Positions 1,468 through 12,051 of a DNA stretch of 64,000 nucleotides are shown here, piece by piece (position 1 is the first letter of the stretch; every line of letters starts with the position of its first letter). The position numbers and the translations under genes were made by a program. The stretch is from Candidatus Vecturithrix granuli (GTDB lineage: Bacteria > Moduliflexota > Moduliflexia > Moduliflexales > Moduliflexaceae): contig DF820464.1 of assembly GCA_000739535.1 (NCBI GenBank), positions 713,069 to 777,068 on the forward strand. The letters run 5' to 3'. Under the pieces are notes generated by a model. That model saw only the letters and a list, made by a program, of their open reading frames with translations. It had not been told where the DNA came from and made no database searches.

Positions 1468-1714
1468 GCTTGTATTTTATGGATAAAGAAGTTGAATATG
1501 TATCATGCGATCGTGAATCAGGTCAGGCAAGAAATCCAGGCGGGGGATCAACCGGTTTTTTCTTGACATTCGCGTCTGATGGGGGAAGAGTGGGAAGATG
1601 AGCTATGCCAACAATCCCATGTTCGCCGAAATTCGGCAAATCATATTTAACAAACAGGAATCGCATAGAGGAAAAAATTAGATGAGGTCCCTGTCCTTCA
1701 AGGAGGCATAACGT
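1468..1714. other. Degenerate intergenic stretch with gene remnants
   Basis: No intact gene is visible. A reading frame from the ATG at 1498 on the plus strand runs for about 22 codons (MYHAIVNQVRQEIQAGDQ) and then hits TGA. The same frame continues with protein-like text (LMGEEWEDELCQQ) interrupted by further stops. This looks like the remains of a small accessory gene, but I cannot name the family. Confidence 0.35.
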
Positions 1715-1783
1715 ATGACCACGATGACGATTGCAGAACCATTACAAGGTCTCTTAGAAGCTGTTTTAAAAGTTTGCAGGTGA
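1715..1783 (+). pseudogene. Start of a small gene cut by a palindromic element
   Basis: A good ribosome binding site (AAGGAGG at 1700-1706) precedes an ATG at 1715 that opens a frame of 22 codons ending in TGA at 1781. The frame runs directly into the left arm of the inverted repeat at 1754. The likeliest reading is a small antitoxin-like gene whose 3' part was lost when the palindromic element arrived. The strong ribosome binding site is the only evidence that this was a real gene. Confidence 0.3.
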
Positions 1784-1922
1784 GGAGTGCGAAAGCTTTG
1801 CTTTCGCTGTCAAAGCAGAGCTTTGACACTCCTGCAGAGCTTTGACATTCCTGCAGAGCTTTGACACTCCTGTTCACCTCTCTCGAAATGCTCGTTGCAT
1901 GGACTTTTAAAACAGCTTCTAA
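1754..1922. mobile_element. MITE-like palindromic element with 20-bp terminal inverted repeats
   Basis: The 20 bases at 1754-1773 are the perfect reverse complement of those at 1903-1922. Between them lie three tandem copies of a 19-bp unit containing AGCTTTGACAYTCCT. The element carries no gene. Perfect terminal inverted repeats around a short non-coding core are typical of non-autonomous miniature elements. No target duplication was clear by eye. Confidence 0.5.
1815..1871. repeat. Three tandem copies of a 19-bp unit
   Basis: The units lie at 1815-1833, 1834-1852 and 1853-1871. Each reads GCAGAGCTTTGACAYTCCT, and the middle copy differs from the others at one base. The period is not a multiple of three and there is no spacer sequence, so this is neither coding nor a CRISPR array. 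It sits inside the palindromic element at 1754-1922. Confidence 0.8.
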
Positions 1923-9099: not shown

Positions 9100-10461
9100 A
9101 TGAATGATGCTGCCAGGTTGCTACAAGATCAGAGTTTCATCAGAACGCTTATGGACTCCCTTCCTTGCGGGTTCATGGTCTTAGATGAAGAGGGGCGCGT
9201 TCAGCTCATAAATGCGATCATGCAACAAACCTTTGGGATCACCGAGCAACCCGTCAGAGGAAAGAAGTATGGGGATGTTCTGAGATGCATTCATCCCCTG
9301 GAAAGTTCCGTAACGTGTGGTTTTACAGCATATTGTCCGGGCTGTGAGACTCGAAAATTAGCGTTTTCAGCCCTTGCTGAAAACCGTAGGCTAACTGCGC
9401 AGACATCCGTGCAATTATTGATTAACGGCCAATTAAAAAATCACCTGCTCCTGCTCAGCGCCGTTCCGTTCGCTTTTGCGGATCGTCGTTCGGTCATGCT
9501 AATCATTGAAAACATTGGTAAGCTGATCTCTCATTCCCTTCCTGTTCAACCTGCGTTCAGGGGAATTGTGGGGCAGAATCCCAAAATGCAGGAGTTATTT
9601 ACGACGATTCGGCATGTGGCACAGACGAATGCTGCGGTGCTGATCCAGGGGGAAAGCGGAACCGGCAAGGAATTAGTGGCGTTAGCTATTCATCAGGAAA
9701 GTCCACGGGCTGAGAAGCATTTTATTCCGGTCAACTGTGGCGCCTTGCCTGAAAGCCTGGCTGAAACCGAACTGTTTGGTCATGTTAAAGGGGCGTTCAC
9801 CGGGGCGATCCATGACAGAAAGGGACGCTTTGAACTTGCCGATCATGGGACTATCTTTCTTGACGAAGTAGGCGAACTGAGTCCTGCTATGCAGGCGAAA
9901 CTCCTGCGGGTGCTTCAGAGCGGAGAAATCCAGCGGGTAGGGAGCGAACGGATGATTCAAGTGAATGTCCGCGTCATCAGCGCCACCAACAAGAACCTTG
10001 AAGAAGAGGTAGAGGCTGGACGGTTCCGGGAAGATCTCTATTATCGTCTCCGAGTGGTCCCCATGACGGTTCCTCCGCTGCGGGAGAGATGTGGAGACAT
10101 CCCGCTGCTGATCGAACACTTTCTTGCCGAATTTGCCAGGGAACCTGGACTCTACAAGGTGACGCTTTCTCCGGCGGCCCTCTCGGTGCTGGTAGAATAT
10201 TCCTGGCCGGGAAATGTCCGAGAACTCCAGAACGTCCTGCAATATGCTATGATCCGATCTCAAGGGGACATGATCGAATCTGATCACCTCCCGCTGCTCC
10301 TTCCCAGTCCCTTGCCGGTCAGACATCGAGAGACAGAACTCCGGGAACAAGATGTTACTCTGGCACTGCAAAAGGCCGGTGGTAACAAACGTCGGGCTGC
10401 CCAAATATTGGGGGTTTCCCGATCGAGCCTGTATCGCTTTTTCGACCGGCAAAAGAAATAA
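9100..10461 (+). CDS. Sigma-54-dependent transcriptional activator (PAS-AAA-Fis)
   Basis: The 453-residue enhancer-binding protein has three parts. An N-terminal PAS domain (about 10-145) includes a cysteine cluster, C63, C73, C79 and C82 (in the segment CGFTAYCPGC). The AAA+ domain (about 165-400) has Walker A GESGTGKE, the sigma-54-contacting loop GAFTGA and Walker B IFLDEVGEL. The C-terminal Fis-type helix-turn-helix is NKRRAAQILGVSRSSLYRFF. It opens sigma-54 promoters using ATP. The PAS domain, not a receiver, would sense the signal; clustered cysteines suggest a metal, haem or redox cue. The ATG at 9100 has GGGAGG nine bases upstream. The likely target is the gene at 10899. Confidence 0.93.
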   Translation: MNDAARLLQDQSFIRTLMDSLPCGFMVLDEEGRVQLINAIMQQTFGITEQPVRGKKYGDVLRCIHPLESSVTCGFTAYCPGCETRKLAFSALAENRRLTAQTSVQLLINGQLKNHLLLLSAVPFAFADRRSVMLIIENIGKLISHSLPVQPAFRGIVGQNPKMQELFTTIRHVAQTNAAVLIQGESGTGKELVALAIHQESPRAEKHFIPVNCGALPESLAETELFGHVKGAFTGAIHDRKGRFELADHGTIFLDEVGELSPAMQAKLLRVLQSGEIQRVGSERMIQVNVRVISATNKNLEEEVEAGRFREDLYYRLRVVPMTVPPLRERCGDIPLLIEHFLAEFAREPGLYKVTLSPAALSVLVEYSWPGNVRELQNVLQYAMIRSQGDMIESDHLPLLLPSPLPVRHRETELREQDVTLALQKAGGNKRRAAQILGVSRSSLYRFFDRQKK

Positions 10462-10477
10462 GCGATATAAGCTACGC

Positions 10478-10527
10478 GTGTCCCAATTAAAGTGTCCCAG
10501 TGTCTCATTTAGCTTAAAAGCATCACC
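10478..10527. promoter_or_regulatory. Candidate upstream activator site, copy 1
   Basis: A 50-bp repeat carries three direct heptamers TGTCYCA (TGTCCCA, TGTCCCA, TGTCTCA) just downstream of the activator gene. The second copy lies 98 bp further on. Fis-type activators often bind such arrays 100-300 bp ahead of a sigma-54 promoter. Confidence 0.6.
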
Positions 10528-10575
10528 GATTCTGCTTTCCCTTATTCATAAGGTTTTTCCCTTGCCCAAGATTAA

Positions 10576-10625
10576 GTGTCTCAATTAAAATGTCCCAGTG
10601 TCCCATTTAGTCCGAAAGTATCACC
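10576..10625. promoter_or_regulatory. Candidate upstream activator site, copy 2
   Basis: This second 50-bp copy again has three TGTCYCA heptamers. It ends about 160 bp before the -24 box at 10788, a normal enhancer distance. Confidence 0.6.
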
Positions 10626-10787
10626 CAGGGGTTCCCAAATCTGATTTCTCGTATCTCCCCAGACACCTGACCTGCTTTACAGCACTTTTGGGGGAACAGT
10701 GATGTTTCATCTTCATTTTCCTGCAATAGCTCTTGAAATTGGATAAGTTCAATAAAAACAATGCGTTGATTGAACTCAGAAGGAGCG

Positions 10788-10803
10788 TGGCATGGTCTTT
10801 GCT
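10788..10803 (+). promoter_or_regulatory. Sigma-54 (-24/-12) promoter
   Basis: TGGCATGGTCTTTGCT matches the consensus TGGCAC-N5-TTGCW at all but one base, with the invariant GG and GC at the correct 12-base separation. Transcription would start near 10814 and give a leader of about 85 bases with a perfect 10-bp hairpin at 10856-10878. Confidence 0.85.
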
Positions 10804-10898
10804 GTATTATTAGTATATCAGTATGTTGTCTATTCTATAATAAGCATATAAATTTGTAATCTTGGACGCCAAGATTACCACTACAACGGAGGTTATGT

Positions 10899-11663
10899 AT
10901 GAAGACGAATACATACTTCTTTTCAATCGTGTTACTTTGTGCACTGACATTTGTTATGAGCGGAGGTTCTGCTTCCAGAGCCTGGGCCGAGCCAAAAACG
11001 TTATTTGGAGAATCTACCCCACTTGGTCAGGGAACTGCTCGGTCATTCGTGATGCTGGATGATCAGGGGAAACCAGTTTCTATCGGAATAGCACTAACGA
11101 AGACGGCACTTTCCGGGTTACCCCAGGGACCAATGCCATCCGAATTAACGCTGGCATTACCTGAAAAAGTGGCTGTCCCCCCATTTGATCATATTTCGGT
11201 TGATTGGAATCCCCAGGGGCATGAGCCAGCGGGAATCTATGACGTGTCTCATTTTGATTTTCATTTTTATTTCATTCCGTCCACAGAACAGGACAAAATC
11301 AGTGAGAATGATATGGCTCAATTTGCAAAGGCTCCATCCGCGGAATATCTGCCGACCGATTACAAACCGATCCCCGGGGGAGTCCCCCGCATGGGAGCGC
11401 ATTGGTTTGATCCGATGTCGCCTGAATTTCAAGGCAAACCGTTTACGGCCACGTTTATTTACGGAACGTATGATGGCAGGGTGATCTTCTATGAACCAAT
11501 GATCGCCTCTGCTGTGCTGGAAACCAAACAGAATTTTTCCAGTGAAATTAAGCAGCCCACGGCGTTCCAGAAAAGTGGATACTATCCGAAAACATATCGG
11601 TCTGTTTACGATGAAACGACCGGAGAATATCGGATTTCCCTTGATGAATTAACATCTCACTAA
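10899..11663 (+). CDS. Secreted DUF5602/TTHB210-like protein
   Basis: The 254-residue protein has a signal peptide (residues 1-30, ending SRAWA) and a single domain. The segments GHEPAGIYDVSHFDFHFY, GGVPRMGAHWFDPMSPEF, FTATFIYGTYDGRVIFYEP and the histidine-rich HFDFHFYF stretch match the DUF5602 (TTHB210-like) pattern as I remember it. No enzymatic activity is established for the family. Conserved His and Met residues in those segments suggest metal binding, which is inference. GGAGG lies eight bases before the ATG. It is the only gene behind the sigma-54 promoter at 10788 and is followed by a hairpin terminator, so it is probably a monocistronic regulon target. Confidence 0.75.
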   Translation: MKTNTYFFSIVLLCALTFVMSGGSASRAWAEPKTLFGESTPLGQGTARSFVMLDDQGKPVSIGIALTKTALSGLPQGPMPSELTLALPEKVAVPPFDHISVDWNPQGHEPAGIYDVSHFDFHFYFIPSTEQDKISENDMAQFAKAPSAEYLPTDYKPIPGGVPRMGAHWFDPMSPEFQGKPFTATFIYGTYDGRVIFYEPMIASAVLETKQNFSSEIKQPTAFQKSGYYPKTYRSVYDETTGEYRISLDELTSH

Positions 11664-11673
11664 GTTTAATCGA

Positions 11674-11710
11674 ATCCTTGCAAAGGGGTCTCGTTCCCTT
11701 TGCAAGGGAT
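11674..11710. terminator. Hairpin after the DUF5602-like gene
   Basis: ATCCTTGCAAAGGG pairs with CCCTTTGCAAGGGAT across an 8-base loop. There is no obvious T tract, so it may instead protect the 3' end of the mRNA. Confidence 0.6.
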
Positions 11711-12051
11711 CAGATGCTTCTGGTAGTAACCTGAATTATCCAAGATTCCCGGATCTGAAATTTATATAATTCACTCGACAATAAACATTATCGAAAATAA
11801 AATTGCAAGAATTGCTTGACTTCTCATTCCATATTCCAAACATATAAAATGAAGTTGTCAAAAATATCTTTCGGAATACAAAGGTGGATGTTGATAATCT
11901 CGTGATGGAATTGGTGTGTGGATTGCATAATTTTCGTATTGCTTGTTGAACCGCTTGCTACGGTTTTCTTCTCTTCGATAATGTCAATTTTATTCGGTTC
12001 ATGTTTAAACACCATTAATAGATGTCTCGTATGTATCAGGGAAAGATTGCC
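11711..12051. other. AT-rich intergenic region
   Basis: No convincing gene is visible in the roughly 340 bases upstream of the tandem response regulator. A 63-codon minus-strand frame (11824-12015) lacks a ribosome binding site and domain-like sequence. A possible -35 (TTGACT at 11816) precedes TATAAA at 11840, which could be a promoter for the regulator gene. Confidence 0.4.

Follow-up and report, generated by a model that had tools for sequence, protein, structure and literature searches.

A probable local sigma-54 switch linking a four-cysteine PAS activator to a secreted DUF5602 protein in Candidatus Vecturithrix granuli

In a 64,000-nucleotide stretch of Candidatus Vecturithrix granuli DNA (contig DF820464.1, positions 713,069 to 777,068; hereafter the window), a gene for a sigma-54-dependent activator is followed by two repeats, a -24/-12 promoter and a gene for a secreted protein. 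Do these neighboring parts constitute a switch in which one activator controls one gene, and is such a switch unusual? From the evidence given below, a local one-activator, one-gene sigma-54 switch is considered the best explanation of the locus, with a probability of about two in three. The coordinates of all features are collected in Table 1.

Table 1. Features of the sigma-54 locus, in window positions
Feature	Position	Strand	Basis	Remarks
Sigma-54-dependent activator (bacterial enhancer-binding protein), 453 aa	9100..10461	+	ORF, Pfam, motifs	
PAS sensor domain, residues 13 to about 82	9136..9345	+	Pfam PAS match, cysteine-motif alignment	
First 50-bp repeat, putative enhancer	10478..10527	+	Repeat/pattern searches	TGTCCCA 10479, TGTCCCA 10493, TGTCTCA 10501
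Second 50-bp repeat, putative enhancer	10576..10625	+		TGTCTCA 10577, TGTCCCA 10591, TGTCCCA 10599
IHF-consensus match AATCAACGCATTG	10759..10771	-		Between array and promoter, about -55 to -43
-24/-12 promoter TGGCATGGTCTTTGCT	10788..10803	+	Pattern scan	Start expected near 10814
10-bp perfect hairpin, 3-nt loop, in 5' leader	10856..10878	+		Upstream of ribosome-binding site 10887
Secreted DUF5602 / TTHB210-like protein, 254 aa, predicted target	10899..11663	+	Pfam, alignment, AlphaFold2	
12-bp inverted repeat CCTTGCAAAGGG...CCCTTTGCAAGG	11676..11707	+	Sequence	Past target stop codon

The first gene had been described in the first-pass annotation as a PAS-AAA-Fis activator, and the presence of an intact activator of this kind is confirmed. 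According to Pfam and motif searches, the protein consists of a PAS domain with four cysteines, an AAA+ domain with GAFTGA and a Fis-type helix-turn-helix. Sigma54_activat (PF00158) was matched at residues 156-322 (E 3.1e-73), an AAA lid was also found, and HTH_8/Fis was matched at residues 422-446 (E 5.8e-7). The motifs GESGTGKE (Walker A, residue 184), GAFTGA (residue 231) and FLDE (residue 253) are all intact. The best NCBIfam scores were obtained for NifA, NorR and PrdR, and the AAA+ and Fis architecture is common to activators of these types. However, the window activator differs from them in its four-cysteine PAS sensor, and its scores lie far under the curated equivalog cut-offs (384.6 vs 528.85, 363.4 vs 476 and 359.9 vs 795, respectively).

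The promoter, previously called near-perfect, proved to be a full consensus that fits every specified position of TGGCAY-N5-TTGCW, and it is the sole site in the window with one mismatch or fewer. Absence of rpoN had been named as grounds for giving up the proposed module. Since rpoN is present in the genome (profile match to PF04552 at C19:649968, E 2.8e-64) and perfect -24/-12 sites are enriched genome-wide (59 vs 9 control matches), this objection fails. About 45 full-length activator domains were found in the genome, and sigma-54 promoters can be cross-activated, so another of these activators might serve the promoter while the adjacent one controls something else. However, 23 of the 59 perfect sites have one of the 45 activator genes no more than 4 kb away, where 2.5 would be expected by a simple density estimate. 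Activator genes and perfect promoters thus co-localize about nine times more often than by chance, so a promoter adjoining an activator is meaningful in this genome, and control by another activator appears very improbable.

The IHF-like site between the array and the promoter was not mentioned in the first-pass annotation. It is a perfect match to the consensus, one of five matches in the 64 kb, and its position is a common one for IHF sites in sigma-54 promoters. Four genes of the HU/IHF family are present in the genome, a count in which HU and IHF are not told apart. The leader of the target transcript, folded as a whole, gave a minimum free energy of -26.3 (z -3.35); one arm of its hairpin, CCAAGATTA, is found again at 10566-10574, directly ahead of the second array. 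No further gene occurs in the ORF list between activator and target. The inverted repeat that follows the target gene has no long T run and is absent from the list of classic terminators. Judged from the sequence, it likely ends a one-gene transcript, and the transcript is therefore probably monocistronic.

The two 50-bp repeats, each with three TGTCYCA heptamers, were present where they had been reported. They are direct repeats of 84% identity, 98 bp apart, with heptamers at offsets 0, 14 and 22 (spans 10479-10507 and 10577-10605). The array starts 18 bp past the activator stop codon, upstream of the promoter, and relative to the expected start the first set of heptamers lies at about -335 to -307 and the second at about -237 to -209. 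These six heptamers represent one third of the 18 TGTCYCA sequences in the whole window. The direct-repeat score is far above the shuffle level (30.0 vs a maximum of 10.5), whereas the array contains no dyad beyond shuffles (best inverted repeat 8.5 vs a maximum of 11.0). When the genome was scanned for further triple-heptamer arrays, with as many as three mismatches allowed, only two matches were obtained in 8.38 Mb, both at this locus, and the reversed control gave none. Such uniqueness suits a one-target circuit. No orthologous activator-target pair was found in the genomes searched, and for this reason there is no phylogenetic footprint of the array.

At their level of identity the two copies resemble a decayed duplication, and they might be left over from a mobile element or have arisen by chance duplication, without any part in regulation. 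However, no copy exists elsewhere in the genome, no exact match was found in viral contigs, and 72,556 plasmids gave no long or significant match (E 2 or worse); on the basis of these searches a mobile-element origin was rejected. Moreover, the copies agree in heptamer spacing and keep every one of the six heptamers, though they differ at other positions, and the location just behind the activator gene and ahead of the promoter fits an enhancer. A non-regulatory origin of the repeats is accordingly considered very unlikely.

OmpR-, LytTR- or similar proteins, and not Fis-type dimers, are the typical binders of direct repeats that lack a dyad. It is conceivable, then, that the activator drives the promoter from a weak site or a site elsewhere, and that the heptamers are bound by some other protein (a response regulator or a repressor) as a second input. 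In three sister modules of the same genome (L099, L101, L102), dyad repeats that exceed the shuffle level lie between activator and promoter, and a double response regulator gene lies downstream of the target at 12022; both observations favor a separate binder. However, the protein encoded at 12022 consists of receiver domains only according to Pfam, the activator is the only adjacent DNA-binding gene, and an array unique in the genome best suits a dedicated local regulator. Binding by another protein is therefore regarded as unlikely, and the activator is retained as the putative binder of the heptamers. The earlier claim of a complete one-target module is thus upheld in part: the components are real, the array is unique and rpoN is present, but binding of the Fis domain to the heptamers is something we infer, and the array has no dyad. 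In another sister module (L106), two copies of the palindromic unit CGGCCARAAATGGCC were observed between activator and promoter. Among the modules compared, the strongest direct repeat is that of the module described here.

The sensor is one of the two less ordinary features of the module. The Pfam PAS match itself spans residues 13-61 of the activator, and the conserved cysteines of the window protein are C63, C73, C79 and C82 (motif region 9283-9345). In the cross-genome alignment, the pattern C-[HN]-x(6-9)-GCG-x(4-5)-C-x2-C recurs in nearly all aligned homologues. There is no second copy of the N-terminal 151 residues elsewhere in the genome. Matches to the sensor domain were found in 23 of the 385 genomes searched, including that of the window, and they are located in histidine-kinase-like and other sensor proteins as well as in at least one activator; many sensor proteins of distant genomes share the four-cysteine variant. 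Neither the target nor the promoter is present beside the closest sensor homologue found (L136/L160), and no described family with the exact four-cysteine motif was found in the literature searched. Four conserved cysteines so spaced are suggestive of metal binding, an Fe-S cluster or a thiol switch.

The predicted target had been described as a single secreted DUF5602-like gene, and this holds true. A signal peptide ending in AWA was recognized by inspection, and the protein matches PF18197, for which the Pfam name is TTHB210-like (E 3e-19, 69.6 bits vs a gathering cut-off of 26.6), while its homologues carry the NCBI name DUF5602 and align with it over the full length. Homologues of 37-51% identity occur in Armatimonadota, Bdellovibrio relatives, Bacteroidota, Opitutaceae and haloarchaea, and those of lower identity in cyanobacteria, Rhodococcus, Streptomyces and Allomeiothermus plasmids. 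No homologue was found in three genomes of the same family or order, and with the A1 profile only two others of the 385 genomes contained one, both belonging to one unrelated genus. The family is rare and patchily distributed, suggesting horizontal transfer.

In an alignment of 17 target sequences, H108, H118, D120, H122, H168 and E199 are invariant, and these six residues are also retained in the 30%-identical Allomeiothermus protein. The AlphaFold2 model of the target is confident (pLDDT 90.8). Comparison of this fold with solved structures gave a best E of 0.18 in Foldseek and a best Z of 4.3 in VIA-align, and no homologous sequence was found in the PDB; none of the solved structures is a convincing match. 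TTHB210 itself reportedly has a known structure and is said to be controlled by a Thermus ECF sigma/anti-sigma pair. No mention of TTHB210 or DUF5602 was found in the literature searched.

Is sigma-54 control a trait of the whole target family? When the 450 bp upstream of 24 other family members were scanned, no strong -24/-12 site was found in any of them, in contrast to the perfect site of the window target, which indicates that it is not. In Azoarcus KH32C, a sigma-54 activator is encoded three genes upstream of a DUF5602 family member, but its sensor is a V4R domain (XylR/DmpR-like, by inspection), unlike the four-cysteine PAS of the window. The only candidate promoter of that cluster is a weak one (14/16), and other family members were rejected as sigma-54 targets. 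DUF5602 genes were also observed within the copper-resistance clusters of two plasmids of the cyanobacterium Chroococcidiopsis (L087, L094), a setting that favors metal binding by the target. Other neighborhoods of the family contain monooxygenase, SRPBCC, flavin reductase and halogenase genes, and given such mixed neighbors the idea of a metal-related role is weak.

The layout of the module is ordinary: it is a fine example of a widespread type of gene switch. About ten modules of this genome are built like the present one, with activator domain and promoter on one strand and the promoter no more than 1.2 kb downstream. Given the clustering of perfect -24/-12 sites beside activator genes, the genome contains several local sigma-54 modules in parallel. 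Among the probable targets of the sister modules are a pentapeptide-repeat protein, an AtuA-like protein, a cupin and a cysteine-rich small protein. In L099 (G000:C11:234500-239000), the likely target is a 97-aa protein rich in Cys, Ser and Asp (ORF 1545-1838, minus strand); it has no Pfam match and contains an LGGC stretch (HVLGGCIAYATCPSKSCSIQACPIEGCDSDNC), resembling the precursor of a peptide natural product. One-component activators located beside their only target operon, with a -24/-12 promoter and an upstream enhancer, have also been reconstructed for Clostridiales (PMC6615313) and Desulfovibrio (PMC4641369). In the former, control of one operon is predicted for 170 of 263 activators (65%), and this operon is usually a neighbor (PMC6615313); in Desulfovibrio vulgaris, 10 of 13 one-component activators are co-localized with sigma-54 promoters (PMC4641369). 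With so many modules of the same order and so many single-operon activators, a complete one-target module is a common arrangement. In Desulfovibrio, most activator genes either diverge from the target operon or lie within it, whereas the window promoter is downstream on the same strand, like that of DVU0569 (PMC4641369). The direct heptamers with no dyad are the other less ordinary feature: most enhancer sites described in these two studies are inverted repeats, such as TGT-N10-12-ACA (PMC6615313, PMC4641369), and the window array departs from this norm.

Under the preferred reading of a local switch, the cysteine-bearing PAS domain of the one-component activator would act as its sensor, and the signal would most likely be redox state, a metal ion or an Fe-S cluster. 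The activator would then occupy both TGTCYCA arrays, some 200-335 bp ahead of the transcription start, and the DNA may be bent at the IHF-like site. The AAA+ ring would contact sigma-54 polymerase through GAFTGA and open the -24/-12 promoter. Only one protein would be produced; it would be secreted and rich in beta structure, with invariant His and Glu residues, and would probably bind a metal or a small ligand. A more specific joint reading can also be drawn, in which the activator reads direct heptamer triplets, the four-cysteine PAS senses metal or redox state, and the secreted target, of a fold with no clear solved relative, binds the same metal through its His/Glu residues; this combination as a whole is speculative and quite unlikely to hold in full.

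Being compact, unique and apparently limited to one target, the module offers a clean handle on an uncharacterized secreted family of bacteria and haloarchaea. The signal that activates the four-cysteine PAS is likely what the DUF5602 protein handles, and the earlier suggestion that the sensor signal could be a clue to the function of the target is a reasonable one. Additionally, about ten like modules make this a convenient genome for matching activators, enhancers and targets by sequence.
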